Shown: positions 1 to 30,364 of the stretch, piece after piece
Position numbering within the stretch: position 1 is the first letter of the stretch
How the letters are laid out: every line of letters begins with the position of its first letter
NCBI RefSeq assembly: GCF_002799155.1
Contig: NZ_NERD01000002.1
Coordinates: forward strand, 1,922,001 to 1,986,000
DNA: 64,000 nt
Origin: Stenotrophomonas maltophilia
Lineage (GTDB): Bacteria; Pseudomonadota; Gammaproteobacteria; Xanthomonadales; Xanthomonadaceae
Direction: 5' to 3'
Program-made: the position numbers and the translations under genes
Notes under the pieces: model-generated
Told to the model about the DNA's origin: nothing
Databases searched by the model: none
What the model saw: only the letters and a program-made list of their open reading frames with translations

Positions 1-1584
1 CTTGCGCGTGACCGGGCCATCGGCATAGGGCCAGGCGTAGTCCAGGCGCAGTTGCAGGTGTTCGCCCAGGCGCAGCTGCGCGCCCAGGCCGACCGAGGCC
101 AGGTTGTACTTGTCACGCTGTTCGGGCAGTGGTTGGCGCAGGCGCAGATAGGCCGCGTCGGCAAAGCTGTAGACGCGCAGATCGGTGCCGCTCCACAGCG
201 ACCACGCCGGGGTGCGCCATTCCAGGCTGGCCAGGCCGCCGTAGTCGCCGATCGCCTCGGCCGACAGATAGCCACGTACGGTATACATGCCACCGGCGGC
301 GAACTGTTCGGCCGACACCAGCGGCGCGTCGGTCACCTGCAGCGAGCCGCGCGCGTACCACTGCCAGTCGCTGCCGAAGGTATGGGTGTTGGCGACATCG
401 GCCTTGAACGCCACGAAGCTCGGGTCGGCCCAGTAGCGCTTCTGGCCGAAGGCGGTGGCGTCGCTGCCGTAACCGAACAGGCGGCGGGTGCCGGCCACCA
501 GCTGGGTGTTGATGCTCAGCTGATCGTGCTCGCCCTGGCGCACGCCGACGAAGGCCAGCGTGATCGGCGCATATTTCAGCGGCGTCTTCAGGCTGTCCCC
601 GCCCATCTGCGTGTCTTCCTCGGTGTCCTTGAAATCCACACCAAGGCTGAGCTGGCGCCACCACTGGCTGCTGCCAGCAAGGCGGTAGTTGAGCTTGAGG
701 CCGATCGAGTGACCGTTGCCGATCACATTGGTTCCGGTGCCGGTACCGACCTGTCCGCCCGCGTTCAGCACGCGGCTATCGGACGTGTAGCCGGACGCTT
801 CCAGGCTCCACGGCGTGCCCTCGAACGGCATCATGTACGAGGCCGAAAACACCTTGGCCTGCTGGGTATCTTCCGGCGCCAGGTACACGCCGATGGTGGC
901 GCTGTGCCCGCGCTTCCACAGGTTGTCGTAGGCCAGCGACGCACTCAGGCGCAGCTTCTCGGTGTCGGCACTGTGGTCGTTGTTGAGCGCCGCGCTGGCG
1001 CGCCACGGCGACTTCTCCTCGACCTGCAGGTCCACATCCATCGTGCCCGGCACCTGGCCTTCGCGCACCAAGGGCATCACCTGGCGACGTCCACCTTCAT
1101 TGAGCGCGGTCAGTTCCTTCTGCGCCTGGTCGAAATCCGGCACCTTGCCCTCGGCCAGCGCCGGCACGCGTTCGCGGATGCGTTCGGGCGATTCGTGCTT
1201 CGTTCCCACGACCCGCAGCTGGCCGATCGGTGTCTGCTGTACCTTCAGCAGTACCACGCCTCCACTGACCTGCTGCTCGGGCAGTTCCACATAGACCGAC
1301 TGGTAGCCCGCCTGCTGGTACAGCGCATTGACTGCATCGCGCGCCTTCTCGACATCGGCCAGGGTCTTGCCCGGGCCGAGGAACGGCTCCACCGCGCGTT
1401 CGATCTGGCGCGGATCGAGCACGGTGTTGCCGCGCACGATGTATTCATTGATGTTCACGCTGGGCGCAGGTGCAGCCGCCTGCGCGAACAACGGCAGCGG
1501 CATCGCGGCCAGGGCCAGCACCAGCGGATGCAGGTGCAGCGGAAGGCGGACGGCTCGGCACGGAACAGGAGTCATCGAAGGCAT
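1..1584 (-). CDS. TpsB (ShlB/FhaC/HecB-type) two-partner-secretion transporter, PdtB-like; C-terminus cut by window edge
   Basis: Read on the minus strand, 528 codons are open from ATG 1584 to the left edge with no stop. The N-terminus has a hydrophobic signal peptide ending near LFAQA, then a POTRA-type region (NEYIVRGNTVLDP, QAGYQSVYVELPEQ). A long alternating beta-strand region follows, containing the family motif GGMYTVRGYL. This family forms 16-stranded outer-membrane pores that export a cognate TpsA protein. The likely partner is the giant exoprotein encoded at 4478-16861. An alternative ATG lies at 1575. Only a few tens of C-terminal residues seem to be missing. The family is clear; the PdtB equivalence is inferred from gene context. 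Confidence 0.9.
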   Translation of the reverse strand, partial: MPSMTPVPCRAVRLPLHLHPLVLALAAMPLPLFAQAAAPAPSVNINEYIVRGNTVLDPRQIERAVEPFLGPGKTLADVEKARDAVNALYQQAGYQSVYVELPEQQVSGGVVLLKVQQTPIGQLRVVGTKHESPERIRERVPALAEGKVPDFDQAQKELTALNEGGRRQVMPLVREGQVPGTMDVDLQVEEKSPWRASAALNNDHSADTEKLRLSASLAYDNLWKRGHSATIGVYLAPEDTQQAKVFSASYMMPFEGTPWSLEASGYTSDSRVLNAGGQVGTGTGTNVIGNGHSIGLKLNYRLAGSSQWWRQLSLGVDFKDTEEDTQMGGDSLKTPLKYAPITLAFVGVRQGEHDQLSINTQLVAGTRRLFGYGSDATAFGQKRYWADPSFVAFKADVANTHTFGSDWQWYARGSLQVTDAPLVSAEQFAAGGMYTVRGYLSAEAIGDYGGLASLEWRTPAWSLWSGTDLRVYSFADAAYLRLRQPLPEQRDKYNLASVGLGAQLRLGEHLQLRLDYAWPYADGPVTRK

Positions 1585-1669
1585 CGCGTCGTATCGAAGG
1601 GAGTGGCCAGGGAGCGGCGCGTGGGTCTACCAACAGGACGTGCACGTCGCGTCAAAACCGCCAATAGTT

Positions 1670-1687
1670 TTGTGACAGCACTGTCAT
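1670..1687 (+). promoter_or_regulatory. candidate Pho box between transporter gene and small secreted-protein gene
   Basis: The 18-mer is TTGTGAC-AGCA-CTGTCAT. The second half matches the PhoB half-site CTGTCAT 7/7 and the first 4/7, with the normal 4-nt spacer. The same bases also form the palindrome TGACAG-CA-CTGTCA (1673-1686), so another regulator could bind here. It lies 86 bp before the transporter start (minus) and 89 bp before the start at 1777 (plus). Function is inferred. Confidence 0.35.
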
Positions 1688-1776
1688 CTTTTGACCCGGC
1701 CGAAACGGTGGCGGGCGGAGACTGCCTTCGCCACACGTCTTCCTTGCAGAACGCCGGTTGCCGCGCGAGATTGGAA

Positions 1777-2112
1777 ATGAGTGCACTATCGATAGCGGGC
1801 ATCCGCCCTGCCCTGGCGCTGGCATTGCTGCTGGCGTTGCCATCGCTCCGTGCCGAGGAGGCAAAGACGCGGGAAGAGGCCGTGCCGTGCATTGAAGTGC
1901 AGGTCAACGGCGAGCGGATTCCGGCGTGGGACTGCCTGCAGCGCAAGCTGGCACCGGCGGCGAAGCCAGCCAAGTCACCGGCGCTGCCTGAAGCCGAACG
2001 CCTGATGCGGCAGCCCGGCAACCAGCTGATGCAGTACAACCTGGAAGGCACGCGACAGCGCATGGGCGATGCCTTCGGCCGCTCGGTGGTGCCGCAGCGC
2101 CCGGCGCGCTGA
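1777..2112 (+). CDS. small secreted protein of unknown function
   Basis: This is a 111-residue protein whose first 26 residues are a clear Sec signal peptide ending at LPSLRAEE. The mature part is charged and contains a short Cys pair (VPCIEVQVNGERIPAWDC) and a Pro/Ala/Lys-rich linker. The ATG at 1777 follows GGAA. The reading frame remains open far upstream only because it is antisense to the transporter gene, so that extension is not real. It is divergent from the transporter gene and may share its regulatory region. I do not recognise a family. It could be a periplasmic accessory of the locus. Confidence 0.65.
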   Translation: MSALSIAGIRPALALALLLALPSLRAEEAKTREEAVPCIEVQVNGERIPAWDCLQRKLAPAAKPAKSPALPEAERLMRQPGNQLMQYNLEGTRQRMGDAFGRSVVPQRPAR

Positions 2113-2122
2113 GCCTGCGCAG

Positions 2123-2208
2123 CTGTAGAACCGGGCCCACGCCCGGCTGCTCCAGCGCGCCCTTCAACGTTCATGCAGAAGCCGCCGGGCGTGGACCCGG
2201 CTCTACAG
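2123..2208. repeat. SMAG-like inverted REP pair
   Basis: Two 25-bp arms (2123-2147 and 2184-2208) are inverted copies with two mismatches. Each begins GTAG at the outer end and contains a GC-rich stem. The right arm overlaps the gspC stop codon. The pair lies between convergent genes and may act as a bidirectional terminator. GTAG-headed palindromes are typical of Stenotrophomonas SMAG elements. Confidence 0.7.
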
Positions 2209-2685
2209 TGAGCCACCGTTCGAGGGCGCAGGCACGATGCCATCGGTCGGCACCGGCGGCAGCTCGGGCACCGGCACGCTGCGCGACTGGCCGGCCTGAT
2301 TCAGTTCCACTGCACTGGCACTGATGCTGGCCAGCACCGTGCAAGGCCCCAACCGCTGCCCGGGTGCGTACGCTTGCGCAGGACGACCATCCACCGACAG
2401 CAGCGCCAGTGGCGCGTGCTCGCCGGCCATCACGCCGAGCACGACCACCTCGGTCCGTACCGCACCGGGGGACAGCAGCCGCACCAGCGGCAGGCTGGCC
2501 ATCGCATCGAACAGGGGCCGTACCGGCGCCTCGGCCTGCGCTTCACCGGCCGCCACCGCTGGCGCCACCGCAGACAGGGTGACACTCCAATAGGCCACCA
2601 CGGCCAGCAGCAGCATCGCTGCCAGCAGGGTCAGCATGCGATTGCGATCCCAGCGCCTGCCATCCATGTTCCGCACCATCGCCAC
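2203..2685 (-). CDS. gspC: type II secretion inner-membrane protein GspC (HxcP-type, short)
   Basis: The protein has up to 160 residues, with a cytoplasmic N-terminus rich in Arg, one membrane helix at about residues 18-38, and a periplasmic homology region (VVVLGVMAGEHAPLALLSVDGRPAQAYAPG). GspC links the outer-membrane secretin GspD to the inner-membrane platform. It is shorter than classical GspC proteins and shows no PDZ or coiled-coil tail. The start may be GTG 2685 or ATG 2679. It is divergently transcribed from gspHIJ with 91 bp between them, and is separated from the other gsp genes by the giant exoprotein gene. Confidence 0.75.
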   Translation of the reverse strand: MAMVRNMDGRRWDRNRMLTLLAAMLLLAVVAYWSVTLSAVAPAVAAGEAQAEAPVRPLFDAMASLPLVRLLSPGAVRTEVVVLGVMAGEHAPLALLSVDGRPAQAYAPGQRLGPCTVLASISASAVELNQAGQSRSVPVPELPPVPTDGIVPAPSNGGSL

Positions 2686-2776: not shown

Positions 2777-3229
2777 ATGTCGGTGCAACGCATCCCGCGC
2801 GGTTTTACCCTGCTGGAGCTGATGGTGGTATTGGTGATCATCGGCATCTGCACTGCCGGTATCGGCCTTGGCCTGGGCAGCCTGCTCGATCCGGCCCGGC
2901 AACTGCGCCAGGAAGCCGAGCGGTTGGCGCAGCGGCTGCAGGTGGCACGCGACGAAGCCCGAATCGATGGCCGGCCCCTGCGCTGGCAGTCCGATGCCAA
3001 GGGCTATCGTTTCAGCCGCCGCGAAGGCGGCCGCTGGGTGACCGTGGAACGCGATGACCTGTTGCGGCCGCAGCAGTGGCAGGCCGCTGGCATTGCGGTA
3101 GTGCCCGCCAGCGCCATCGAACTGAGCCCGGAATGGATCGGCACTGCCTGGGAGCTGGGGCTGTCGCTGGAGGGCCGCACACTGCGTCTTCGTGATGATG
3201 GCAGCGGACAATTGCAGGTCGTGCAGTGA
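2777..3229 (+). CDS. gspH: type II secretion minor pseudopilin GspH
   Basis: This 150-residue protein opens with a prepilin leader: a short basic segment ending in Gly, then FTLLELMVVLVIIGI with Glu at +5. PilD-type peptidase would cut after RG and methylate the Phe. The rest is a small GspH/FimT-like globular domain (QEAERLAQRLQVARDEARIDGRPL). Minor pseudopilins build the tip of the periplasmic pseudopilus. GGAGGCA precedes the start. Its TGA overlaps the GTG of gspI (GTGA), so H, I and J are translationally coupled. Confidence 0.88.
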   Translation: MSVQRIPRGFTLLELMVVLVIIGICTAGIGLGLGSLLDPARQLRQEAERLAQRLQVARDEARIDGRPLRWQSDAKGYRFSRREGGRWVTVERDDLLRPQQWQAAGIAVVPASAIELSPEWIGTAWELGLSLEGRTLRLRDDGSGQLQVVQ

Positions 3230-3588
3230 AGCAGGCGATGCGAGGATTCACCCTGATCGAAGTGCTGATCGCGCTGGCGATCGTATCGATTGCGTTGGCG
3301 GCGGTGATGCGTTCGGTGGCGGTGGCGACCGACGATCAATCGCGGCTGCGCGATCGCCGCCTGGCGCTGATGTGCGCGCAGGACCGCTGGCAGGAACTGC
3401 GCCTGACCGGACAGGCAGCGCAGGATGGCCGCCAGCGCTGCGTGCAGGGACGCGGCAGCTTCCTGGTGCTGCAGCATCTTGGCACGGGCAGCGACGGCCA
3501 GCCGCAGCTGGAACTTAGCGTGGTGGCCGAGGACGCACCGCGGCGACCGCTGGCGCGGATGCAGCTGCCGTGGACGCTCGCACCGTGA
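3226..3588 (+). CDS. gspI: type II secretion minor pseudopilin GspI
   Basis: The 120-residue protein has the prepilin signature MRGFTLIEVLIALAIVSIAL right at the N-terminus, followed by the GspI pattern of a conserved aromatic and Cys segment (ALMCAQDRWQELR). It initiates at GTG 3226, which overlaps the gspH stop; ATG 3238 is a possible alternative. GspI nucleates the GspI-J-K tip complex. It lies in the gspHIJ mini-operon on the strand opposite to the main gsp block. Confidence 0.87.
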   Translation: MKQAMRGFTLIEVLIALAIVSIALAAVMRSVAVATDDQSRLRDRRLALMCAQDRWQELRLTGQAAQDGRQRCVQGRGSFLVLQHLGTGSDGQPQLELSVVAEDAPRRPLARMQLPWTLAP

Positions 3589-4199
3589 AGCGCGCCGTGC
3601 GCGGCTTCACCCTGATCGAGGTGATGATCGCGATCACCATCATGGGCGTGCTGGCGCTGATCTGCTGGCGTACGCTCGACAGCGTGGCCAGCAGCGACCA
3701 GCGCCTGCGCCAGGCCGATGCCGAGACCACCACGGCGCTGCGCGTGCTGCAGCAGTTCCAGCGTGATATCGACATGCGCGCAGACGACGCGCTGATGAAT
3801 GGCGCCGTGCGCCCGGCGGACCAGCCGCAGCGACTGCTGCCACCTTCGCTGGTGAGCGAACGGCATCCGGATGGCAGCTTCGCGCTGGAGATCACCCGCA
3901 GCGTCGGCAGCGACGGGCTGCGCTGGCAGCGGGTGCGCTGGTGGCAACAGGGCAACACGCTGTGGCGGGCCAGTGGCGAGGCGACCGACCGGTATCCGCT
4001 GCCAGCGCCTGAGCAATCGAGGGGCATCGCGGTGGCCCGTGATGTGCAGCGGTTCGAGGTGCGTGCCTGGCAGCCCGGTGCCGGTTGGGCGGTGCTGCCG
4101 GGCGAAGGCGAGGTATTGCCGGCGACGGGGCTGGAGCTGCGGCTGGGCCTTCGCGATGGGCGTGGGCCGCTGAGCTACCGGCGGGTGCTGGAGTTGTAG
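3585..4199 (+). CDS. gspJ: type II secretion minor pseudopilin GspJ
   Basis: GTG 3585 overlaps the gspI stop (GTGA) and yields a 204-residue prepilin beginning VKRAVRGFTLIEVMIAITIM. A longer frame from GTG 3570 is possible, but the overlap start gives the usual short leader. The body carries the GspJ-type LRVLQQFQRDIDMRADDA and WWQQGNTLWRASGE segments. GspJ packs with GspI and GspK at the pseudopilus tip. It is the last gene of the plus-strand mini-operon and converges on the exoprotein gene. Confidence 0.87.
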   Translation: MKRAVRGFTLIEVMIAITIMGVLALICWRTLDSVASSDQRLRQADAETTTALRVLQQFQRDIDMRADDALMNGAVRPADQPQRLLPPSLVSERHPDGSFALEITRSVGSDGLRWQRVRWWQQGNTLWRASGEATDRYPLPAPEQSRGIAVARDVQRFEVRAWQPGAGWAVLPGEGEVLPATGLELRLGLRDGRGPLSYRRVLEL

Positions 4200-4477: not shown

Positions 4478-7400
4478 CTAGCGGCGCTCGGTGCCCTCGT
4501 CCCGGCTGGCCTGCGGGAACTGGAAGGCGCTGTTGGCGTCGTAGCCACTGCCGGCGGTCGTGCCACGCGCAGGCGGAGCGATGCTGCTTGTACCACTGCC
4601 AAAGCCCAGAATCTGCACGCTGATCACCGATGGCTGGTTGCGCCGTGCATCGTCCTGGCTCTTGCGCATCACATCCTGTGCGGCCTGGCTGGCACTGTTC
4701 GCCGCCGCACTGGCCGAGGCCAGCGCATTGACGTTCACCGTGGCCAGCACCGGCAGGCCCTTGCTCTCGCCCTGTACCTGGATATTGGCGGCGTTGAGCA
4801 CCTGCAGCGCCGCCAGATTGATGTTGCCCGAGACGCGGATACCGGCCTCGCCCGCATCGATGGTGCCCAGCGGCGCGATCAGGTCGACGTCGCCCGGCGG
4901 CACTTCGGCGATGGGGTTCAAGGTCGCAATGCCTGCGCCACTGGCGGGAGCCTGCGGCGACAGGATCACATTGCCCCAGCCGTCATAGAGGCGACGCGGT
5001 GGCGTGTACAGCAGCGTCGTCTGCGAACCGCGACCGGCATTGATGTCACCCTGCTCCGACCAGGCCAGGATGTCGCCGCCGAACGTGGTCATCACCCGCG
5101 ACAGGCCCAGCAGCACGCTGTCCTGGCTGAACAGGCGGATATCGCCCTGCCCCTGGGTGACGAGGCCGGCGGTGGCAGGCGGCACCACGCCCTGTACGCC
5201 GACCACGATCTGTCCGCCCGGTGCCATCAGTTCGATGTTGCCGCCCGCCTCGGTGCGCACGCCGGAACCGCCGTACATCACGATATCGCCGGTACGGTCG
5301 ATCGTCGCACCGGCCGCATTCCTGTCCGGCATCAGCGTGGCGATGGCTTCGCGCCCGCGCAGGTAGGAGCCGAAGCGGGGCCCTTCTGCATCGGTGTACT
5401 CACGCCCACCTTCGCGCAGTTCGGCGTAGTACACCTGGCGCAGGAAGATGCGCTGCTGTTCCTGCGGCAGTGCGTCGAATGCAGCCAGCGCCCCGTCGCC
5501 GTCGGCAGCCACGCCGAAGCGCTGCTGCAGCCACTGCTTCAGCTCCTGGTTGTAGACCTTGACGGCCTTGCCCGGCTGCGACGCGAGCGATTGCGCGGGA
5601 TCGGCCAGATTCGCAGGATCCAGATAGCGGGCACGCAGGGCCGCGAAATCGATCTGCTGGTTGCCGGCCGTCAGCGCGATGCTGGCGCCGGGACGGGTAT
5701 CGCCCTGCACGATGCCACCGAGGCTGACGATGCTGCCCGCATCCTCCTGGCGCAGCTGGCGGCCGGCACTGATCTCGGTGTTGCCGGGGCCGGCGATGAT
5801 CGCGTTCAGATGCACGATGTCGCGGCCCGCCGCCACCACCGTGAAGTCGGTGGACGCGGTGTTCAGCGCGGTCATCGACACCCCGAGGATGTCCCGGCCT
5901 GCCCGCAGTTGCACGGCGCCGGCGGCCTCGAACCAGTTCAGCTGCGTGCGCTGCCCCCCGTTGGGAGTCAGCGTGCGTTGGGCGCCGGTGGCCAGACCGA
6001 TGATGTCGCCCTGCACCGCGTAGAAGCGGCTCGGCGCCAGGGCCGCAGACACGGTGGACAGCGGAGTATTCGGACCGAACGCAAACAGCGGAAGCGACGC
6101 CTGCGGCGATGCAATGTTGCCGTCGACCGACAGGTTGTGACGCGAGCGGGTCACATTGCCGCTGGAATCCCCCTGCTCGGCCATGAATGCAGGGTCGAAG
6201 GGTCCCGGCAGGCGCGCGTCGCTGGCGGAGCGCGCGATCTGGGTCGCGCCACGCTGGGCGAAGATGCCGCCACCGGCCAGGACGTCCAGCCGTCCTGTCG
6301 CCGAGGGTGCCAGCAGGATCACATCCTGCGTCCCCGGCGTGGTGCTGATCCGGTCCAGCTTGACGTCGCCCTGCGCAGCAACGGCGCTGAAGCGCGAAGG
6401 ATAGAGCCAGTAGTTCAGCAGCTCCTCCCGGCTGCCCGGTGCCAGCGCAACCTGCTCGGGCCACAGATTGCTGCCGGTCACGTTCTCCGGCCCGGCCAGG
6501 CCCGGCGCCAGGTCGCCACCGGCACTGAACAGGTCCACGGCGGTCGTGTCGGTCCACAGGGAGAACCAGGTGCTGCCCGCAGCGCGGCTGCCGTTGTCCT
6601 GCACCACCGCGCTGTAGTTGGCCAGTGGAACCCGACCGGCATCGGCGACGCCGCCGAGCACGACGTCACCCCGCGCCTGCAGCTGCGCGACCGCATCGCC
6701 CAGCACCAGCACCGGCCCGCCCATCGGGCGAGCGGCGTCGGCGGCGAACAGATCGGCCGCACGCAGCTGGCCCAGCGTCGCGTAGCTTTCCAGGGTGACG
6801 CCCATTGCACCGATGCGTCCCGCATCCAGCTGCAGGCTGCCACGCAGATTGCTGAAGGTACCGTTGAGGTCGAGATTCTGTCCCGCCCTGGAGGCATTGA
6901 GGCTGGAGAACGTCGCCCGCAGATTCGGATTCAGTGCGCCACCGATACGCAGTTGCAGGTCGCCGCCGCCGGTCAGGTGCAGCTGGCCATCGCTGACCCG
7001 GCCGGTCGATCCCACCGCCGCGATGATCGCACCTGAGCGCGGTGCGATCGTCGAGTCCAGCGCGTCACCTATCGCATCGCGCACGCCGGCGTCACGCCCG
7101 GCCTCCAGCGTCAAGTTGCCGCCGCCCAATGTACCGAAGCCGGTGAAGCCGACCATCCGCGGAGAGGCGCCAGCAGCAGCGGACACGTTGGTGTAGGCGC
7201 CAAAGTTCACCCACCAGCTGGTCGGCACCGGCTCCACGCCGGTGGTGCTGCCGGTTCCCTGCCGCCACAGCCAGTTGCCGACCGCGGCACTGGAGTACAG
7301 CGCCCAGTCACGCTCGCTGGTGCCCGACTCTGCGCGCCCGGTCCAGACGTCACCGACGATATCTCGCCCGGCTTCGACGCGCAGGTTGCCGCCATGATCG

Positions 7401-16861: not shown

Positions 16862-17005
16862 CGGAACCTCATCAACCTGGTGGGCCGCGGCTGCGGCGAC
16901 GATCGGGGAGGCACGCGCAACGCATGCCCTGCCCCTGATAGACGGTTCATGTGACACGAAGCCGACAGCGAAACACTGCAGTGGCGGCACCGTCGCGGAA
17001 ATGGC

Positions 17006-19755: not shown

Positions 19756-21189
19756 TCAGTCGTCGCCCGTGACGCGCAGGATTTCTTCCAGCGTGGTCAC
19801 CCCGCTGTCGACCCAACGCTGGCCGTCCTGGCGCAGCGTGCGCATGCCGGCATGCCGCGCCGCTTCGCGCAGCGCGGGCTCACCCTGCCCTTCATGGATC
19901 AGCGCACGCACGCGATCGTCCACCACGAAAAGCTCATGGATGCCGGTGCGCCCCCGATAGCCGCTGTTGGCACAGGCCGCGCAGCCCACCGCACGCCACA
20001 CGGTGCGGCCTTCGCCATCCACCTCGGCACGCCTGCATTGCGTGCAGAGCCGCCGCACCAACCGCTGCGCCAGCACACCGCGCAGCGACGAGGCGAGCAG
20101 GAACGGCTCCACCCCCATGTCGGCCAGACGGGTTACCGCTGAGATCGCGTCATTGGTGTGCAGGGAGGCCAGCACGCCATGCCCGGTCAGCGACGACTGC
20201 ACCGCAATCTGCGCGGTTTCCAGATCGCGGATCTCGCCAATCATGATGGTGTCCGGGTCCTGGCGCAGGATCGCGCGCAGCGCGGTGCCGAAGCTCATGC
20301 CGATACGCGCGTTGACCTGGATCTGGCCGATGCCGGCGAAGTCGTACTCCACCGGGTCTTCCACGGTGAGGATGTTGCTGGTGCTGCTGTCGAGCTGGCC
20401 CAGCGCGGCGTACAGCGAAGTGGTCTTGCCGCTGCCGGTCGGCCCGGTGACCAGCACGATGCCATGCGGCTGCCGGATCAATCCGGTGAACGTGGCCAGG
20501 GTGTCATCGGCCATGCCCAGGCGCTGCAGCTGCAGGCGGCCGGCATCCTTTTCCAGCAGTCGCAGCACGGCGCGCTCGCCATGCCCGGTCGGCACCGTGG
20601 AGACACGGATATCCAGCGGACGCCCACCCACGCGGATCGCGATGCGCCCGTCCTGCGGCAGGCGCTTCTCGGCGATGTCCAGGTGCGCCATGATCTTGAT
20701 GCGCGACACCAGCGCCGCGTGCAGTGCGCGCCGCGGCTGCACCATGTCGCGCAGCGTGCCGTCCACCCGGTAGCGCACCACCGAGTGGGTCTCGAACGGC
20801 TCGATGTGCAGATCGCTGGCGCCATCGCGTGCGGCCTGTGCCAGCAGCGCGTTGATCATGCGGATCACCGGCGCATCGTCCTGCGCATCCAGCAGATCGG
20901 TGACCTCCGGCATGTCCTGCATCAGCCGGTCCAGATCCACTTCACTTTCAGCAGCCCCGACCACAGCAGCGGCATCGCCGCCGTCACGGTACTGTTCACC
21001 CAGCCGCTGTTGCCAGGTCGCCGCATCCAGCGCCTGGAACGGCAGCGGGCCATGCCGGCGCCGCAGTTCGGCCACGGCCCACGCGGCAGTTTCGGCGGTG
21101 CCCAGCAGTACGGGCTCGCCGCCGGCCTCGGACAGCATAACGCCATGGCTGCGCACCCAGGCGTACGGCAGCGGCGCGGCGGCGCTCAC
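19756..21189 (-). CDS. gspE: type II secretion ATPase GspE
   Basis: The 477-residue cytoplasmic ATPase powers pseudopilus assembly. Walker A GPTGSGKTT lies at about residues 248-256, the Walker B region is DTIMIGEIRD, and the C-terminal zinc motif is two Cys pairs (CTQC and CAAC). An N-terminal domain that binds GspL precedes an Asp-rich segment. It initiates at GTG 21189, overlapping the gspD stop (GTGA). Its order after gspD and before gspF is that of one operon. Confidence 0.94.
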   Translation of the reverse strand: MSAAAPLPYAWVRSHGVMLSEAGGEPVLLGTAETAAWAVAELRRRHGPLPFQALDAATWQQRLGEQYRDGGDAAAVVGAAESEVDLDRLMQDMPEVTDLLDAQDDAPVIRMINALLAQAARDGASDLHIEPFETHSVVRYRVDGTLRDMVQPRRALHAALVSRIKIMAHLDIAEKRLPQDGRIAIRVGGRPLDIRVSTVPTGHGERAVLRLLEKDAGRLQLQRLGMADDTLATFTGLIRQPHGIVLVTGPTGSGKTTSLYAALGQLDSSTSNILTVEDPVEYDFAGIGQIQVNARIGMSFGTALRAILRQDPDTIMIGEIRDLETAQIAVQSSLTGHGVLASLHTNDAISAVTRLADMGVEPFLLASSLRGVLAQRLVRRLCTQCRRAEVDGEGRTVWRAVGCAACANSGYRGRTGIHELFVVDDRVRALIHEGQGEPALREAARHAGMRTLRQDGQRWVDSGVTTLEEILRVTGDD

Positions 21190-23567: not shown

Positions 23568-24091
23568 GGATGGGCACCCGCAGTGGCCACCATCACGATG
23601 TTTCCGGAAATCCGTGCCGCCGGCATGTTCGCATCCCCTGTGCGTGTCAGTTGCAGCTGCTGCAGCTCGATGGCCGGGTCGGCCAGCAGCGGCAGCAGCC
23701 AGTTCCATAGCGCGTCGGCGGGCACCGCCTGCACCTGCAGGTGCCAGCGCCCGTCGCGCGCTTCGATATGCAGGCCGTCGGCAAGGCCGGCGGATCTGAT
23801 TCCGTCCCGCAGGCTGGCCAGCGTCGGGCGCTGGCCCTGGGCCTGCTGCTGGCGCTCCCGGGCCCGCAGCAGCGGCGCCAGTGCGCGGGACTGCGCCTGC
23901 AGCCGTGGGAGTTCGGCCTGCCAGTACGCGTGCTGCTTCAGCAGGGGGTCCAGCCACAACGACCACAGGCCTGCCGCCAGCAGCGCCACCACCATCACCC
24001 ACAGCATCAGCCGGTCGCGCGCTGGCAGGCGCTGCCAGCGCTGCCGGAGGCCGGCCAGTCCCTCGCCCAAGCGCAGGGTGCGGGTCGTCAC
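23564..24091 (-). CDS. gspM: type II secretion protein GspM
   Basis: The 175-residue bitopic protein has one N-terminal membrane helix (LMLWVMVVALLAAGLWSLW), a short coiled segment (LQAQSRALAPLLRARERQQQAQ) and a ferredoxin-like periplasmic domain. GspM pairs with GspL at the inner membrane. It initiates at GTG 24091, overlapping the gspL stop, and its own stop overlaps the gspD start, which argues for tight coupling of L, M and D. Confidence 0.85.
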   Translation of the reverse strand: MTTRTLRLGEGLAGLRQRWQRLPARDRLMLWVMVVALLAAGLWSLWLDPLLKQHAYWQAELPRLQAQSRALAPLLRARERQQQAQGQRPTLASLRDGIRSAGLADGLHIEARDGRWHLQVQAVPADALWNWLLPLLADPAIELQQLQLTRTGDANMPAARISGNIVMVATAGAHP

Positions 24092-25251
24092 TGTCCGGCT
24101 CCGCTCACCCGCAGTTGTCCATCGGAACCACGTGCCAGCTGCAGGCCCTGCGCCTGCACCGCCTGCTGCCAGCGCTCGAGCCGCTGCGGATCATCGGCCA
24201 ATGCCTGGGCATCGGCGTCCAACGCCATGTCCAGCTGGCCCGGCTGGTAATGCAGGCTGCGAACCTGCCCCGCCAACTCCGGGACCGCCTGCAGCGTGCT
24301 GGCCACCTGGCGTTGCAGTGGCGGCAACGGCGGCGGTGGCAATGGCACCGCCAATGCCCGCCTTGCCTGCAGCACCGGGTCCACCACATCGGTGATCTCC
24401 GGGAAGCGTGCATTGAACTGCCGCGTCATGCCCTGTTGCAGCACCTCGCCCTCACTTCGCCACCGCGAGACCTGCAGCTGCAGGCCGAGCGCGGCCAGCA
24501 GCACCGCCGCCAACGCCAGGCCGATCGCCAACCGGGGCGCCCGCTGGCCAGTACCAGCCAGCGGCAACGACCACGCCGGCACGGGGCCGCAGGCCTGCCG
24601 CTCATGCGCGACGGCGGTGGCGGGCAGGCTCGCCGGCCACGTCGGGGGCACGCTGTCGAGCCACTGCACGGCGTGCGCGCCGGCCTGTTGCAGGCGCACT
24701 GCCAGGGCCTGCATCACTGCGGACGCGTCACGTCCGCCACACCATTGGACGAAGCCCCGATCGCGCCCGCTGCGCACAAGCAGGTGCTCGCCGCTGACCT
24801 GCAGCGTGGCCTGGCCCTCCTGCCAGGGCAGCAGCAATGGCGTGGGATACAGTGCCTGCAGCTGCAGTGCGCACGAGGCCAGCAGCTGCTGCGCCTGCAG
24901 GACTGCCTGCTGGCCGAGCCAGGCCACCGGAACCGTGCCGTCCGCCGCCTGCGCACCGTGGGCCAACGCCACCTCCTGCAGGTCGTCCAGCAGCATCGCC
25001 TCCACTTCACCCTGCAACGCCGACTGCAGGCGGCGCCCGGACAACGGCGGCAGCTGCAGTTCCAGCAGGATCAGGTCGTGCGGATCAAGGCAGGCGCGCA
25101 CCGCCGCATTCGGATGACGCAGGCCCAGCGCCGCCAGTGTGTCGCGGCCGTGTGCCAGCACTTCGCCCTTGTGCAGCTGCACCCAGTCCACTGCGCTGTC
25201 GGCGCGCAGGTGCTCCAGCGGCGGCAGGCGCACCCGTAGCTGCACGCTCAT
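24088..25251 (-). CDS. gspL: type II secretion protein GspL
   Basis: ATG 25251 overlaps the gspK stop (ATGA) and is preferred to the in-frame ATG at 25269. The 387-residue protein has an actin-like cytoplasmic domain that recruits GspE, one membrane helix (about residues 240-262, LAIGLALAAVLLAALGL), and a periplasmic domain with a Pro-rich linker (VPLPPPPLPPLQ). It lies in the K-L-M-D-E-F chain of overlapping genes. Confidence 0.87.
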   Translation of the reverse strand: MSVQLRVRLPPLEHLRADSAVDWVQLHKGEVLAHGRDTLAALGLRHPNAAVRACLDPHDLILLELQLPPLSGRRLQSALQGEVEAMLLDDLQEVALAHGAQAADGTVPVAWLGQQAVLQAQQLLASCALQLQALYPTPLLLPWQEGQATLQVSGEHLLVRSGRDRGFVQWCGGRDASAVMQALAVRLQQAGAHAVQWLDSVPPTWPASLPATAVAHERQACGPVPAWSLPLAGTGQRAPRLAIGLALAAVLLAALGLQLQVSRWRSEGEVLQQGMTRQFNARFPEITDVVDPVLQARRALAVPLPPPPLPPLQRQVASTLQAVPELAGQVRSLHYQPGQLDMALDADAQALADDPQRLERWQQAVQAQGLQLARGSDGQLRVSGAGQ

Positions 25252-26153
25252 GCACCGATCCTCGTCCACACTCGCTGCACACGTGCCCCATCGTCACGGT
25301 ACTCGCGCCAGAGCAACGCACGGAACTCGACCGCACTGCCATCGGCCTGCACCTGGCCGATCGCAAGGAACCACTCGCTATGGATGCCCAAGGGAAGCAT
25401 GGCCATCTGTTCGTTGCTCAGTTGCAGCCGATTGGCGATGTCGCCGCGGTTGAGCAGCCAACGGCCACCGTCGCGCTCACCGAGCAGCGCCTGCAGCCGC
25501 GCCGGCTCGACCGCAGGCGTCACTGCCTGCAGAACGCTCAGGTCGCAGGTATTGGCGTTGACCAGGGTCTGCGCCGGCAACACCACGGTGCGTCGCGCCA
25601 GCGCCTGCACCGCCATCGGATCGGCACCAGGAAGCGCCTGCACGATCAGTGATTCGCGCGGCAGCGGCGCCTGCGCCTGCATGCCGCCGTCGCGCAGGCG
25701 CGCCTGGATGTGGTCCGCTGCGGATGCGCAGGCGCCCAGGCCCAGCCCCTGCCCGGCACACAACGCGATGAACGCGCGTCGCGCCTCGGGGTCCGGCCCG
25801 CCATGCGCCAGCAGGTTGCGCAGGTTGAACATCGACTGCGCGTCGACCAGCTGCAACTGCACCGGCAACGGCGCCTGCAGCGTCAGCGGACGCGCCCAGC
25901 GACCGCTGCGCACCGTAGTCAACTGCTCGCGCACATCCTCGCGCAGCTGCTGCGCCGCACGCTCCAGCGTGGCGTCGACCGCCATGCGCACCTGCGCACG
26001 CAACTGGTCGCTACGCAGCGCGCGCAGCTGCGCCGACTGCCGGGTCAGCAGCGCGGTGGCAATCACCGCCACCAGTGCCACCACCAGCAGCGCAACGATC
26101 ACCGCCATGCCACGCTGGCGGGTGCACGGGACCGCACGTGTCCGGGTTGCCAT
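25248..26153 (-). CDS. gspK: type II secretion pseudopilin GspK
   Basis: This 301-residue atypical pseudopilin has a prepilin-like start (RQRGMAVIVALLVVALVAVI), where the usual Phe+1 and Glu+5 are replaced by Met and Val; lack of Glu+5 is a known trait of GspK. The large alpha-helical domain (LVDAQSMFNLRNLL, ALLGERDGGRWLLNRGDIANRL) sits at the pseudopilus tip. It follows gspG by 9 bp and overlaps gspL. Confidence 0.88.
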   Translation of the reverse strand: MATRTRAVPCTRQRGMAVIVALLVVALVAVIATALLTRQSAQLRALRSDQLRAQVRMAVDATLERAAQQLREDVREQLTTVRSGRWARPLTLQAPLPVQLQLVDAQSMFNLRNLLAHGGPDPEARRAFIALCAGQGLGLGACASAADHIQARLRDGGMQAQAPLPRESLIVQALPGADPMAVQALARRTVVLPAQTLVNANTCDLSVLQAVTPAVEPARLQALLGERDGGRWLLNRGDIANRLQLSNEQMAMLPLGIHSEWFLAIGQVQADGSAVEFRALLWREYRDDGARVQRVWTRIGA

Positions 26154-26162
26154 CAGCGCGCC

Positions 26163-26600
26163 TCACAGCTGCCAGGAGCCGATATCCGCGTTCCCGGCGA
26201 CGCCACCTGGCTTGCTGTCCGCACCCAGCGAGAACACGTCGATGTCGCCATGGGTTCCGGGACTCTGGTACTGGTACGGATGGCCCCACGGATCATTCGG
26301 CAGGCGATCCAGATACGGCGGAACCGGCATCGAACCGCTGCCCTGCGGCGGCTTCACCAGTGCCTGCAGGCCCTGCTCGGCACTCGGATAGCGCCCATTG
26401 TCCAGCCTGAACAGTTTCAGCGCCTGCATTAATGCCGCGATATCCTGCCGCGCCGCGACCACGCGCGCCTGGTCAGGGCGGTCCATCAGGCGCGGCACGA
26501 TCAATGCGGCGAGGATGCCGATGATCACCACCACCACCATGATTTCGATCAGGCTGAACCCCTGCTGCCGAGCCCTGCGACCACGAACCTGCCTTGCCAT
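26163..26600 (-). CDS. gspG: type II secretion major pseudopilin GspG
   Basis: The 145-residue major pseudopilin carries the classic signature QQGFSLIEIMVVVVIIGIL and the GspG C-terminal region with calcium-loop residues (LDNGRYPSAEQGLQALV, LPNDPWGHPYQYQSPG, DIDVFSLGAD). It polymerises into the pseudopilus that pushes substrates through GspD. It is the first gsp gene in this block, downstream of the two Phd-like genes. Confidence 0.95.
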   Translation of the reverse strand: MARQVRGRRARQQGFSLIEIMVVVVIIGILAALIVPRLMDRPDQARVVAARQDIAALMQALKLFRLDNGRYPSAEQGLQALVKPPQGSGSMPVPPYLDRLPNDPWGHPYQYQSPGTHGDIDVFSLGADSKPGGVAGNADIGSWQL

Positions 26601-26657: not shown

Positions 26658-27239
26658 TCAGTACGATAAACATCCGCCGGCAATTCGCTGCGCATGTGCC
26701 TGCGCGGGCGCAGGGGCCGCCTGCGCGCGTGCCGCGTCGAACAGGTGTTGCGGCACGCTGGCCAGCGTTTCGTCGATGCAGCCGCGCACCAGCGGATGCG
26801 CGCACGCCTGCAGCAGGCGCACGCACTGCATCGGCGACCACGCGGTGCCGTGGTCGAGGCCGATGAACATCCGGTAGGCCTGGTGGTAGCGCAGGTCGTC
26901 ATAGACGCGCTGCGCACTGTTGAGGTCACGCACGACCAGCAGCAGGGCCGCGCGTTGCAGCAGCCGCGCATCGCCCGCCTCAAGCGGCAGCGCGTTCATG
27001 GCCGCTTCCGGCCAGGGCCGCAGCTGCAGATCGAGCGCGCTTCGCAGCGCCGCCAGCGGATGCGCGCTGCTGTCCAGCGCCGCCCAGCGCGCCGCTTCCG
27101 CCCAGGCATCACTGGACAGCACCCATACCCAGGAATGCCCGTAACGTTGCACGTTCAAGGGCGTGTGCCGCGCCTGCTCCAGTGACTGGCTCAGGTGGCG
27201 ATCCAGCTCCAGCATGCTGATCCTGCGACTGTCTGCCAT
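26658..27239 (-). CDS. Phd-like protein A (PhdA-like) with transposase-N-like tail
   Basis: ATG 27239 gives about 193 residues beginning MADSRRISMLELDRHL. The first ~45 residues look like a Phd/YefM antitoxin DNA-binding fold (LSQSLEQARHTPLNVQRYGHSWVWVL). The second half contains YDDLRYHQAYRMFIGL, resembling the N-terminal segment of IS5/IS1182-type transposases (LLFRWFVGL). It is a paralogue of the next gene (27360-27911), with LHPLA-type and helical blocks aligned throughout. P. aeruginosa has a gene called phdA in its equivalent locus. No toxin gene is adjacent. The role is unknown. Confidence 0.7.
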   Translation of the reverse strand: MADSRRISMLELDRHLSQSLEQARHTPLNVQRYGHSWVWVLSSDAWAEAARWAALDSSAHPLAALRSALDLQLRPWPEAAMNALPLEAGDARLLQRAALLLVVRDLNSAQRVYDDLRYHQAYRMFIGLDHGTAWSPMQCVRLLQACAHPLVRGCIDETLASVPQHLFDAARAQAAPAPAQAHAQRIAGGCLSY

Positions 27240-27359
27240 CTGCGTCGCCCGCGCTCCGCGACGCGTGGTGCGTCGTACTCTGGAGAAGACGTCAGCAAGG
27301 CAGGTGAAGCGACAGCGCGAATGCAACTCTGTGCGCTGGGTGGTGCTTCATCGGCACCG

Positions 27360-27911
27360 TCATCGCAGCGTCATCCGCCTGCAGGCTTCGCGCAGCAGGC
27401 GCGGTGCGTCGCCGCCGCAGCGCCGGGCCAATACCGCCACGTCGCTGCGCGTGGCGAACGCAGCCAGCGCACCCGTCATCTCCACGTCATCGCACCATGA
27501 CGCCATCGCAATGCGTAGCGCCGGCAGCTGCCAGCCGTCCATCACGCCGCGGGTGCCCGCCACGAACCAGTGCCACAGCCGGTGGTGCAGCACCTGCTCG
27601 TGCAACTGCGCCAGATCGTCGATGCCATGCATGCCCATCAGCAGCAGTGCGCGTGCAAGCGCCGCAGGCGGCAACGCACCGGTTTCAGCCAGCGGCAGCA
27701 CCTGCTGCTGCAGGCGCAGCAGCATCGCCAGCGGGTGCGACTGCGGATCGAAGTCCAGCAGCACAGCCTGTTGCTGCCACTGTGCGTCAGACACCACGCA
27801 CACCCATGGCGAGCCGTAGCGGTGCACCATCAAAGGCCGTCGCTGGGTGGTTTCCAGCAACGCCGACAGATTGCGGCGCAGATCCAGCACACCGATGGTC
27901 TCGTTGCGCAT
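27360..27911 (-). CDS. Phd-like protein B (PhdA-like) with transposase-N-like tail
   Basis: This 183-residue protein begins MRNETIGVLDLRRNLSALLE and has the Phd-type strand block RRPLMVHRYGSPWVCVVSDAQW. Its C-terminal half contains LHEQVLHHRLWHWFVAG, again like the N-terminal domain of IS5/IS1182 transposases, but no DDE catalytic core follows. It is paralogous to 26658-27239. Both lie between the anti-sigma gene and gspG, so they are probably regulated with the secretion genes. They may be domesticated regulators rather than toxin-antitoxin parts. Confidence 0.7.
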   Translation of the reverse strand: MRNETIGVLDLRRNLSALLETTQRRPLMVHRYGSPWVCVVSDAQWQQQAVLLDFDPQSHPLAMLLRLQQQVLPLAETGALPPAALARALLLMGMHGIDDLAQLHEQVLHHRLWHWFVAGTRGVMDGWQLPALRIAMASWCDDVEMTGALAAFATRSDVAVLARRCGGDAPRLLREACRRMTLR

Positions 27912-27969: not shown

Positions 27970-28950
27970 CTAACCAAGGACGGCAATGCCACCCGGAAAG
28001 CGACGCAGATCCAGCGACATCGTCAGTCGCAGCTGCTCCAGCGCGGCGTCCGGATCATCGATGCGGAAGCGGCCACTGACCGGGGCACGCGCCAACGCCG
28101 ATTCGCCCAGCAGTACCTTGCCGCGGCGGTATCGGTTGATTTCATCCACCACCTCGCGCAGCGGTGCGCGGCGGAATACCAGCATGCCTTCGGTCCAGGC
28201 ACTCACTTCCGAGGCCACGGCTTCGGCCACCACGCCACTGAGGCGCTCGTCGTACTGGGTCTGCTGGCCCGCCTGCAGCTGCAGGCGGCCCTGTGGGTGC
28301 TCGATGCGTGCACTGCCCTGCAGGCAGGTCACCCGTACCTGTCCATGGGTATTGCGCACGTCCAGGCGCACCGCACCTTCCTCGGCAATCACGCAGCCTG
28401 GCCCCGCGAACAAGGCCAGGCGCAGGCCAGCCTCGGTTTCGATCGCGGCCTGGCCCTGCACCAGCTCGAAGCCTTCGCCCTGCGCGTCCGCACGGCGGCG
28501 CAGGCTGCTCTGCGTATCCAGTTCGATCTTCAACTGCGGCAGGGGCGCGATCCGCAGCCGTTCGCCGGTGCCGGTGTGGAAATCGGCCGTCATGGCCGTC
28601 ACCGACGGCCACAGCCCCAGCGGTGGGCGGATCGCCGCCACCACCACCAGGCTGGCTGGCGCAGCAATCGCGGCGCCCAGGAAGGCGCGCCGGCTCCAGC
28701 GCTGGGCCGGCGTCGGCGCGACCGGCTGCCGTGCCGTGGCGGGCAGCTGCTCGCCGGCCAGCCGTACCTGTTCCCATTGCCGGCGCGCCCGGCCGAACGC
28801 TTCGCGATGGTGGGGGTCGGCCTCGCACCACGCACGAAACCTGCGTGCATCAGCGGCAGTGGCTTCGCCCGAGGTCAGCCGCACCACCCACGCGTGGGCC
28901 TGACGCTCGACGGCATCCAGCGGGCGTTGCGGGCGATCGTCAGGATCCAT
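27970..28950 (-). CDS. FecR-type anti-sigma factor, VreR-like
   Basis: The 326-residue protein has a cytoplasmic FecR N-domain (HAWVVRLTSGEATAADARRF), a single membrane helix at about residues 88-108 (FLGAAIAAPASLVVVAAI), and a periplasmic FecR domain plus C-terminal STN-like region (EGMLVFRRAPLREVVDEINRY). Such proteins hold an ECF sigma factor inactive and release it when an outer-membrane signal arrives. It lies 69 bp after the sigma gene. Assignment as VreR counterpart is by context. Confidence 0.88.
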   Translation of the reverse strand: MDPDDRPQRPLDAVERQAHAWVVRLTSGEATAADARRFRAWCEADPHHREAFGRARRQWEQVRLAGEQLPATARQPVAPTPAQRWSRRAFLGAAIAAPASLVVVAAIRPPLGLWPSVTAMTADFHTGTGERLRIAPLPQLKIELDTQSSLRRRADAQGEGFELVQGQAAIETEAGLRLALFAGPGCVIAEEGAVRLDVRNTHGQVRVTCLQGSARIEHPQGRLQLQAGQQTQYDERLSGVVAEAVASEVSAWTEGMLVFRRAPLREVVDEINRYRRGKVLLGESALARAPVSGRFRIDDPDAALEQLRLTMSLDLRRFPGGIAVLG

Positions 28951-29019
28951 GGGGACTCATGCCGGACCCGCACGCTGCGGGGTTCTGCTCGGCGTCAAAG
29001 TGTAGACGGATGCCGCCGC

Positions 29020-29550
29020 TCAGAACCGCACCTGGCGCCCCTGCCCGCTGCGCTCGGCCAGATAGTCCTGGGCCGCCTTCAGCTCGCGCTGCACCAGCCG
29101 CAGCGACACGCCCAGGTGATCGGCGACATCGCGCTGCTGCAGGCCGTCGACGCGGATCGCCAGCAGGATGCGGCGACGACGCTCGGGCATGCGCTGCAGC
29201 AGCCCGACCATGTCTTCCAGCGCGAAGTCCAGCTCAGCTACCTGCGCCGGGCCCGGTGCTGGGTCGGCCATGTCCATCAGCGTATCCACCTCTTCCAGGC
29301 TCAGCAGGCGGTGGTCGGCACGTTGGCGGTCGATCACGGTGTTCATCGCCATGCGCAGCAGGTAGGCCGCGGGATTCTGCACGGCATCCAGACGGTCACG
29401 GCGCGCACTCAGGCGCATCCAGGTGTCCTGCAGCGCGTCGCCGGCCAGCTCTTCCGAGCCCAGCTTGCGCACCAAGCGGCGCTTCAGCTCGTCGTAGGCC
29501 CCCAGAAGGTGGTCCATCAGGTCAACTGCCCCAGCCGTACCGTTGCTCAT
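29020..29550 (-). CDS. ECF sigma factor (FecI-like), VreI-like
   Basis: ATG 29550 is chosen because AAGGA stands 8 nt upstream; this gives 176 residues. Region 2 (LLGAYDELKRRLVRKLG, ALQDTWMRL, PAAYLLRMAMNTVIDRQR) and region 4 (LQRMPERRRRILLAIRVDGLQQRDVADHLGV, split by a short linker) are present, as in iron-starvation-type ECF sigmas. It starts 16 bp after the receptor-like gene and precedes the anti-sigma gene. In P. aeruginosa the equivalent sigma activates hxc and pdt genes. Confidence 0.88.
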   Translation of the reverse strand: MSNGTAGAVDLMDHLLGAYDELKRRLVRKLGSEELAGDALQDTWMRLSARRDRLDAVQNPAAYLLRMAMNTVIDRQRADHRLLSLEEVDTLMDMADPAPGPAQVAELDFALEDMVGLLQRMPERRRRILLAIRVDGLQQRDVADHLGVSLRLVQRELKAAQDYLAERSGQGRQVRF

Positions 29551-29566
29551 GTTCGGATCCTTGAAG

Positions 29567-30247
29567 TCATGGAAGGGGCGCGCGCCGGCCACAGTCGTGG
29601 TCGGTGCCGGAAGGACGGATCTGCAGCGTCACCGGCTGCGGCAGCGCAGCGGCATCGGGCGCCAGCACCAGGCCCTGCAGCGCCTGCAGCAGGCGCGCAT
29701 CGCGGCGGGCACTGCCACTACCGGACAGCAGTTCGGGCTGCTGCACCTGGCCCTCGGCGTCGACGCGGAAGCGCAGGGTTGCGGCATAGCGGCCGGGCGC
29801 GATCTCAGGGTCGTCACAGAACGCCGCGCGCAGGCGCTGCTGCAGGCCGCCATAGCGGCGGCGACGTTCGGCCTCGGGAAGATCGACGCCAACACCGGGT
29901 TCGGCGGCCGAGGACGTTCCCCGGCGCAGCACCACGCGCTGCTCGCCGATCACCTCGGCCTCGATGCCGGTGTCCTGCAGCAGCATCTGCAACGCAGGCA
30001 GCGGCATCAGGCTGGCGCGCAGCGCATGGCTGCTGCGGCCCGCGGCGAGGTCGCCCGGGTACATCACCGACCACCCGCTGATGACACTGAAGCGCTCGAC
30101 CGCCTGTTCCAGCGGCTGCGCAGGGATATCGTAGGCATGAACACCGTCCTGCGCGGCAGCGGCAGAGGACAGCAGCAGCCATGCGGCGATGGCCACCTTC
30201 CAAGTTCTGACCGCATGGTGTCCATTCAGCCCCCTGACGTAGAACAC
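29567..30247 (-). CDS. receptor-like STN-domain protein with C-terminal TonB-like domain, VreA-like
   Basis: GTG 30247 has GAGG 5 nt upstream and places a signal peptide (VAIAAWLLLSSAAAAQ) near the N-terminus; longer in-frame starts to 30346 have less support. The 226-residue protein has an STN secretin/TonB signalling domain (IPAQPLEQAVERFSVISGWSVMYPG is split here by eye at about residues 45-105) and then a TonB C-terminal-like domain (YAATLRFRVDAEGQVQQPELL). There is no TonB box, plug or beta-barrel. This architecture is that described for VreA of P. aeruginosa. Confidence 0.82.
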   Translation of the reverse strand: MFYVRGLNGHHAVRTWKVAIAAWLLLSSAAAAQDGVHAYDIPAQPLEQAVERFSVISGWSVMYPGDLAAGRSSHALRASLMPLPALQMLLQDTGIEAEVIGEQRVVLRRGTSSAAEPGVGVDLPEAERRRRYGGLQQRLRAAFCDDPEIAPGRYAATLRFRVDAEGQVQQPELLSGSGSARRDARLLQALQGLVLAPDAAALPQPVTLQIRPSGTDHDCGRRAPLP

Positions 30248-30346
30248 ATGACCCTCGGCAGCGACAGCAGCTGCAGTGGACGCGCCCACGACCGGAACCC
30301 GGCCCGCGCGCGACCAGCAAGCGGGCTCAAACCGTACCGGGGTCAC

Positions 30347-30364
30347 ATGTCATTGCGATGACCG
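30347..30364 (-). promoter_or_regulatory. candidate Pho box upstream of the receptor-like/sigma/anti-sigma operon
   Basis: On the minus strand the 18-mer is CGGTCAT-CGCA-ATGACAT, matching the PhoB consensus halves 6/7 and 5/7 with the correct 4-nt spacer. It lies 100 bp upstream of the preferred start at 30247. This is a sequence match only; phosphate control is inferred from the P. aeruginosa counterpart. Confidence 0.45.

Follow-up and report, generated by a model that had tools for sequence, protein, structure and literature searches.

A PUMA3-Hxc-Pdt-like locus of Stenotrophomonas maltophilia in which DING and TpsA probably move as one exchangeable pair

Does a locus that joins surface signalling, a type II secretion system and a two-partner secretion (TPS) system evolve as a single unit? 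We addressed this question in a 64,000-nucleotide stretch of DNA from Stenotrophomonas maltophilia (the window; G000:C1:1922001-1986000, G000 being its own genome), for which an initial annotation had described the gene set known in Pseudomonas aeruginosa as vreAIR-hxc-DING-phdA-pdtAB and suggested that it acts as one phosphate-scavenging or virulence unit. On sequence grounds, a locus of ~35 kb, made up of window positions 1-30364 and the 4.8 kb preceding them (negative coordinates are upstream of window position 1), is almost certainly the counterpart of the Pseudomonas PUMA3-Hxc-DING-Pdt locus. Its tpsA and tpsB genes share a promoter motif of the extracytoplasmic function (ECF) type, which supports the suggested unit for signalling and TPS, but that unit appears to have two evolutionary parts: a fixed machinery and a freely exchanged pair, the phosphate-binding protein DING and the giant exoprotein TpsA. 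This division is new relative to the earlier reading. We give a probability of roughly 0.55 to the interpretation that VreAIR, Hxc, TpsB and ExbB/D-TonB-Porin_5 are the fixed components of this PUMA3-Hxc-Pdt locus, and that DING and TpsA are its exchangeable, matched cargo.

The two cargo genes adjoin each other on the minus strand. The first (17062..18237) encodes a DING/LAP-type phosphate-binding protein with a TVTGGG N-terminus, 44% identical to its match in PA7 of the P. aeruginosa group. The second, tpsA (4478..16861), encodes a PdtA-like protein of 4127 aa from ATG 16861, with a TPS domain and DUF3739 and 43-49% identity to PA7. They are the left and right halves of the exchanged cassette, which in the window is of type A among nine types. 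In two congeners, G098 and G124, DING and tpsA are 74-75% and 68% identical to those of the window, but gspE, gspF and exbB are 97-99% identical. Distances were compared in 37 of the 39 congeners that carry DING (G229, where tpsA is not one open frame, and G223, with split contigs, were left out). Outside this comparison stood vreI, gspG, gspM, gspH, gspI, the small gene, exbD, tonB and the porin gene, as well as gspD, whose automatic starts were misread; phd2 was excluded from the partial correlation (one short row). Pairwise protein distances of DING and tpsA correlated at r 0.95; either of the two correlated with the 12 other locus genes at r 0.19-0.35, and those 12 among themselves at 0.87-0.98. 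With the mean distance of 11 flank genes controlled for, DING and tpsA kept a partial correlation of 0.951, a value reached in 0 of 2000 permutations (largest 0.27). Average-linkage clustering, cut at 0.15 for DING and 0.20 for tpsA, yielded nine DING types and nine TpsA types with identical membership (groups of 13, 11, 4, 3 and 2, and four single genomes; n=37); a looser tpsA cut of 0.28 merges the groups of 13 and 3.

Could DING and TpsA merely evolve faster than the machinery, by ordinary vertical divergence? Median nonsynonymous divergence (pN) between types, 0.183 for DING and 0.249 for tpsA vs 0.014 for gspE, is what this explanation would predict, yet trees and synonymous divergence (pS) leave it a very remote prospect. 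Mapped onto a tree built from ten flank proteins, the types require 19 changes, where the minimum possible is 8, and shuffled labels need 20.7 on average, with 19 or lower in 30 of 200 shuffles; on the DING and tpsA trees the same labels need 8 changes each. Well supported branches of the flank tree alone force at least 6 changes for type A and 6 for type B. Flank trees constrained to a single clade were rejected for types A (p 2e-70), B (6e-26) and E (4e-37), which refutes vertical divergence for these three under this model, and were not rejected for C (p 0.27) and D (p 0.31); the flank genes may have recombined themselves. Flank pS was alike in same-type and different-type pairs (vreR, 0.348 vs 0.343), whereas pS rose from same-type to different-type pairs from 0.32 to 0.52 for tpsA and from 0.20 to 0.33 for DING. 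Among the 143 same-type pairs, the DING value lay under that of all six flank genes in 118 and the tpsA value in 52; in the pair G000-G277, for example, pS was 0.32-0.41 for the flanks, 0.07 for DING and 0.20 for tpsA. These values indicate transfer from species to species rather than divergence in place, for DING and for some of the tpsA pairs at the least. Very probably DING and TpsA were exchanged together, apart from the remaining locus genes that were compared.

The same question was put to Pseudomonas. A first sample, of named genomes scanned with a P. fluorescens-type DING and biased in that it was chosen by SBW25-type DING peptides, had tpsA after DING in 31/31 loci, gspF upstream in 27/31 (L165 was not judgeable) and a DING-tpsA partial r of 0.63 (20/31 loci). 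At three of these loci (L166, L176 and L181) the pair stood with no gsp gene within 7.7-10 kb upstream. Their genomes have an Hxc-type gspF elsewhere, and in that of L181 (G308) the Hxc place, L205, lacks DING and tpsA in the stretch examined. Because of the bias, a second sample was based on Hxc. HxcS was found at E <= 1e-150 in 75 of the 249 genomes of the Pseudomonas genus group, at 83 places, and 40 of these places, from 38 genomes, were sampled: 32 have DING followed by tpsA, eight have neither, and none has one alone. Two of the eight pairless places (L194 and L206) are second Hxc places of genomes whose other places (L198 and L225) have the pair; L194, L206 and L226 have a pectate lyase as neighbour, and L216 looks similar by eye. 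At the 32 paired places the DING-tpsA partial r given gspE/gspF was 0.90 (0/2000 permutations), and four broad types agreed fully (adjusted Rand 1.0; finer cuts, 0.57-0.88). The Pseudomonas flanks track the pair more than in the window's genus, at 0.60-0.70. Taken together, the distance correlations, the one-to-one types, the trees and the all-or-none presence in Pseudomonas point to the predicted exported pair being an exchangeable, matched cassette on fixed machinery.

Does such a cassette imply that its two products work together? The pair might instead be held by linkage only: with no interaction between the proteins, each of them, or TpsA alone, would be diversified by phages, predators or host immunity, and the genes would move together as neighbours, homologous exchange being anchored in two conserved stretches, the start of DING and the end of tpsA. 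The cassette edges have this form. Comparison of six genomes of different types showed 0.92-0.94 identity in the DING promoter and 0.81-0.94 in the first ~285 bp of DING; past the DING start identity drops to about 0.5-0.9, to recover along the final ~1.3 kb of tpsA. The 150 bp directly after gspF are variable even inside type A. In 150-residue windows, TpsA tracks DING at 0.82-0.94 from residue 301 to 3750; its last ~120 residues track the flanks (r 0.95), not DING (0.19). Other observations fit linkage less comfortably: the intact pair away from Hxc at the three Pseudomonas loci, the all-or-none presence at the 40 Hxc places, and the correlation of DING with tpsA within types A (r 0.83, 11 genomes) and B (0.78, 13 genomes), over that with five flank genes (0.21-0.39). 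Linkage accounts for co-transfer, and less well for all-or-none presence and for the pair away from Hxc; we rate it as a serious contender at a little under an even chance. A direct partnership of DING and TpsA is on the sequence evidence about equally plausible, and we propose it tentatively.

Among 91 congeners, VreI (E <= 1e-30) occurs in 40 and DING (E <= 1e-3) in 39, all with VreI. The set is thus carried by 39 of the 40 vreI-bearing genomes, in one contig stretch in 38 and across two contigs in G223, where gspL-M-D-E, exbD, tonB and the porin gene were unseen on the split contigs; the stretches of G251 and G225 end before the porin gene. In all 39, gspH, gspI and gspJ are reversed. An lrp neighbour is present in 32/39, contig ends cutting it off in G071, G251, G226 and G225 and none being seen in G278, G266 and G223. 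In the fortieth vreI genome (G273:C11, L142-L143), vreAIR and residues 1-96 of phd1 are followed by a fusion to porin residues 518-591, which reads as a natural loss of all locus genes between phd1 and the porin gene. Across 198 genomes sampled from the family, relatives of VreA over its full length were found in six of nine congeners (own included) and, at 33-36% identity, in five genomes of other genera. One of the latter, G111, has the order small gene-vreA-vreI-vreR-tpsA, with no gsp gene in the 16 kb examined besides a short weak gspD-like match.

What, then, is the fixed machinery? On the minus strand the locus runs through the vreA-, vreI- and vreR-like genes, two PhdA-like genes, gspG-K-L-M-D-E-F, DING and tpsA; gspJ-I-H (plus strand), gspC and a small gene (plus strand) lie between tpsA and tpsB. 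The vreA-like gene (29567..30247, minus; proposed GTG start at 30247, giving 226 aa, in a frame open to 30346) encodes a short, barrel-less receptor-like protein with a TonB/TolA-like C-terminus (TonB_2, 23.0 vs a cut-off of 22 bits); its N-terminus matched Pfam STN only at E 0.13. Its residues ~54-154 match parts of ~850-1170-residue open frames in congeners, which we take to be TonB-dependent receptors. Next to it are the vreI-like ECF sigma factor (29020..29592, minus), whose best PA7 match, about 40-41% identical at E 1.9e-28 (next 2.0e-13), adjoins hxc, and the vreR-like FecR/DUF4880 anti-sigma factor (27970..28950, minus; 38%), in the vreA-vreI-vreR order of PUMA3. Identities here and below are to PA7, compared by tblastn against three PA7 stretches, with lrp left aside. 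The ECF sigma, FecR/DUF4880, ShlB/POTRA_2, TPS domain and DUF3739 profiles were all over cut-off.

The two PhdA-like proteins (27360..27911 and 26658..27326, minus) are products of real genes, 34% and 33% identical to the same PA7 Phd-like gene; as Phd proteins they were less securely annotated, one matching Pfam Phd at E 0.17 and the other not at all. Both touch the 'transposase' model DUF772, under its cut-off, and in the first of them Phd and DUF772 are both under cut-off. The type II genes on the minus strand are gspG (hxcT, 26163..26600; 67%), gspK (hxcX, 25248..26153; 33%), gspL (hxcY, 24088..25269; 30%), gspM (hxcZ, 23564..24091; 33%), the secretin gene gspD (hxcQ, 21186..23567; 49%; proposed ATG at 23567 in a frame open to 24002), the ATPase gene gspE (hxcR, 19756..21189; 72%), gspF (hxcS, 18549..19748; 68%) and gspC (hxcP, 2203..2685; 35%); those on the plus strand are gspJ (hxcW, 3570..4199; 43%), gspI (hxcV, 3226..3588; 47%) and gspH (hxcU, 2777..3229; 45%). 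GspD, E, F, G, H, K, L and M were over Pfam cut-offs and GspI over the NCBIfam cut-off only; GspC and GspJ fell under profile cut-offs, yet their PA7 identities and corresponding places complete the full gspC-M set that had been annotated. The identities of GspF and GspE, beside vreAIR and DING, assign the system to Hxc; for comparison, PA7 HxcS is 35-46% identical to lower GspF matches in Pseudomonas genomes. The small gene (1777..2112, plus) encodes 111 aa with a signal-peptide-like start by eye and 35% identity to its PA7 relative.

The closest solved chains to DING are 5jk4 and 5j1d (E <=4.5e-168), followed by 2q9t and others, in full-length homology; the Pseudomonas DINGs retrieved with the 2q9t chain share 42-48% identity with the window's protein. 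TpsB is a PdtB-like protein of 541 aa with ShlB/POTRA_2 (52%), and together with the ~4,130-residue TpsA and the downstream exbBD-tonB genes it marks the Pdt system. Its gene (minus strand) covers window positions 1..1584 and ends at -41, and exbB (-1864..-50; DUF2341, laminin-G and MotA/ExbB; 53%), exbD (-2288..-1761; 58%), tonB (-2993..-2292; 48%) and the Porin_5 gene (-4781..-3006; 48%) lie outside the window. The receptor-like protein, sigma and anti-sigma factors, DING and the TPS pair of the initial annotation were all recovered; the corrections to it are the plus strand of gspHIJ (2777-4199), the tpsB end at -41 and the four genes beyond the window's edge.

Protein searches and gene order both place this set beside that of PA7, as had been proposed: 23 of 24 locus genes matched in the three stretches, VreA being without a tblastn match there, and the loci are nearly collinear. 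They share the orders gspG-K-L-M-D-E-F-DING-tpsA and tpsB-exbB-exbD-tonB-porin and the opposite strand of gspJ, gspH and gspI. In the window locus, gspHIJ, gspC and the small gene form a block that has moved, and a pair of Phd-like genes comes after vreR: in PA7, gspHIJ and gspC lie between vreR and gspG, the small gene lies before the vreA position, and a single Phd-like gene stands between tpsA and tpsB. Conservation across genera, also claimed at the outset, was borne out and was in print before (PMC2729926; statements from published work here refer to excerpts of the papers cited); what is added here is evolutionary, namely the exchange of DING with TpsA. According to the same source, PUMA3 is accompanied by TPS and ExbBD genes in Burkholderia, Rhodopseudomonas and Janthinobacterium, and in P. 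fluorescens Hxc lies downstream. In P. fluorescens SBW25, likewise, DING (psp) stands beside hxc and a 4083-residue haemagglutinin-domain protein (pflu2428), and the excerpt seen does not treat pairing or exchange (PMC2225411). Among the literature matches listed, with subscription journals mostly uncovered, there was no mention of DING-TpsA pairing or exchange.

Is the locus also expressed as a unit? The motif TGKCGGYTTY-N13-CGTC lies upstream of both TPS genes, as TGTCGGCTTC-N13-CGTC (16939..16967, minus) 78 nt upstream of the tpsA start and as TGGCGGTTTT-N13-CGTC (1635..1663, minus) 51 nt upstream of tpsB. It is present at tpsB in 39/39 genomes and exact at tpsA in 22/39; the other 17 tpsA sites (type B, type E and two of type C) share TGTCG, then deviate, and carry CGTC at equal spacing. 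The window's own genome has no mismatch-free motif beyond these two sites, nor does G269; G179 and G278 have one extra each, and in G098 the tpsB site is exact and the tpsA site has one mismatch. With one mismatch allowed, the motif is rarer than its reversed control (14 vs 51 in the own genome). Because it was drawn from these sites and is rarer than that control, only its placement counts as evidence. The two sites mirror the two sigma-VreI promoters of P. aeruginosa, PpdtA and PphdA, which are placed alike and are also PhoB-dependent (PMC4971064), and the placement supports a candidate common tpsA/tpsB regulon. A strict search found the motif before tpsA in 0/32 Pseudomonas places.

Phosphate control of the window locus is weakly supported by predicted sites. 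A CTGTCAC-AAAA stretch resembling a PHO half-box lies just upstream of the tpsB promoter, its second half poor in the window; half-box and A-run precede tpsB in 32/39 genomes. The mean best PHO-box score before tpsB was 12.6 vs 8.0 for shuffled sequence in the 39 related genomes, and the score was high in 7/10 genomes inspected and absent in G269, G278 and G266. An apparent PHO box before tpsA in type A was rejected as the ECF -35 element itself. The site upstream of vreA is a palindrome, GTCATCGCAATGAC (30347-30364, minus), and not a direct repeat, and is kept in 14/16 aligned congeners. In the divergent gspC/gspH region (2686-2776), GATGAAACAAAAGCGTCAGC is invariant in 16 aligned congeners and is followed by CTGYTAGCGT; this region is perhaps another promoter. 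The ~180 nt before DING (18238-18420, minus) keep a high level of conservation among 16 aligned congeners, the most diverged included, with repeated TCCACAC/TCCACAG words and then a long leader; an RNA structure in this leader was unconvincing (alifold -29.7 vs -25.3, sd 3.4, for shuffled columns of 30 distinct rows).

If the pair is matched cargo, what would it do? In our proposal, PhoB and sigma-VreI would switch the locus on at low phosphate. Hxc would export DING, which would bind inorganic phosphate (Pi) outside the cell, and surface TpsA would receive or hold its own type of DING. Captured Pi would then return to the producer cell through the porin, energised by TonB. That a secreted Pi binder is a public good would account for the diversity of types, as would exposure of the pair to phages and hosts. 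By analogy, DING is a likely substrate of the type II (Hxc) system: that of SBW25 is induced by Pi limitation and its secretion is mainly HxcR-dependent (PMC2225411), and in cultures depleted of Pi it is secreted together with the large exoprotein PFLU2428 (PMC5082522). A stronger form of the proposal holds that DING and TpsA act as lock and key in self-specific phosphate capture: DING would be a secreted protein scavenger, a 'phosphophore', of use only to cells that display the giant surface protein fitting it, and selection would maintain many interchangeable types in the genus, all on a conserved chassis of two secretion machines; judged from the sequences, we consider this form somewhat unlikely. 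Pyoverdines and their receptors also come in types, a matched secreted scavenger and surface partner with exchange. The likeness would hold only if the lock-and-key inference does, and here the scavenger is a protein Pi binder, the partner a TPS exoprotein and the exporter a type II system.

The locus might instead serve adhesion or virulence, as in P. aeruginosa, with phosphate merely a cue and DING an incidental passenger. TpsA is an exoprotein like filamentous haemagglutinin, and PdtA and sigma-VreI have been tied to the virulence of PAO1 (PMC2729926, PMC7035377), although in a zebrafish test virulence stayed at the wild-type level in vreI-overexpressing strains mutated in tpsA or tpsB (PMC2729926). 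An incidental DING is also hard to square with its presence in 39 of the 40 vreI genomes. Its first copies keep GGGA[ST]LP and GSDS in 39/39 and SSGT[ST]E in 37/39, all three of which we take to be phosphate-site motifs. We therefore regard a virulence locus with passenger DING as improbable.

Several points weigh against matched cargo serving phosphate capture. We know of no direct contact between DING and TpsA. Strict pairing could reflect linkage alone, because the genes are adjacent and the types so divergent (tpsA median pS 0.52) as to impede recombination within the pair. Within types, tpsA correlates with five flank genes at r 0.64-0.67 in A (0.29-0.44 in B). Nine of the 39 genomes have a tandem second DING (L041-L044, L047-L048, L088-L089, L106-L107, L130-L131, L134-L135 and L138-L141); the six of types B and C lack all three motifs as written, some narrowly (GGGATMP in G124), and may have another ligand or a structural role. 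Four unlinked DING copies (L116, G271:C21; L149, G267:C86; L148, G271:C15; L150, G279:C1) miss two or three motifs and have no tpsA in the 18-40 kb around them, and a fifth, split copy is listed at G071:C126; by eye, two of the unlinked copies follow a gene resembling phenylalanyl-tRNA synthetase and a MerR-like gene. PHO-box-like sites found by pattern in the window numbered 5 vs 4.1 expected by chance, and the region before DING scored no better than shuffled sequence (8.3 vs 7.5, sd 1.5). Pi limitation did not induce hxcR in SBW25, where losing psp also carried no fitness cost in the laboratory (PMC2225411), and in P. aeruginosa VreA was dispensable for sigma-VreI activity and virulence (PMC7035377).

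Beyond the locus, window positions 36131-55871 encode, by Pfam, nitrate reductase alpha and beta subunits, a radical-SAM molybdenum-cofactor protein and an ABC transporter together with its solute-binding protein, for molybdate as judged by eye. A gene at 58675-63429 (minus) encodes a 1584-residue protein with ten RHS-repeat stretches and DUF6531; it has a lower GC content at third codon positions (0.78) and lies in an AT-richer part of the window.

The pairing makes DING and TpsA one evolving unit in both the window's genus and Pseudomonas, and predicts a physical or functional partnership between them. In PAO1, LapA/LapB, which have VTGGG N-termini, occupy the place of the PA14 DING (PMC2225411), and an exchangeable cargo slot is a possible reason for such DING/Lap gene differences among P. 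aeruginosa strains. The finding also bears on the function of PdtA, on the signal of VreA and on the reason why a phosphate binder may be exported by a type II system of its own.

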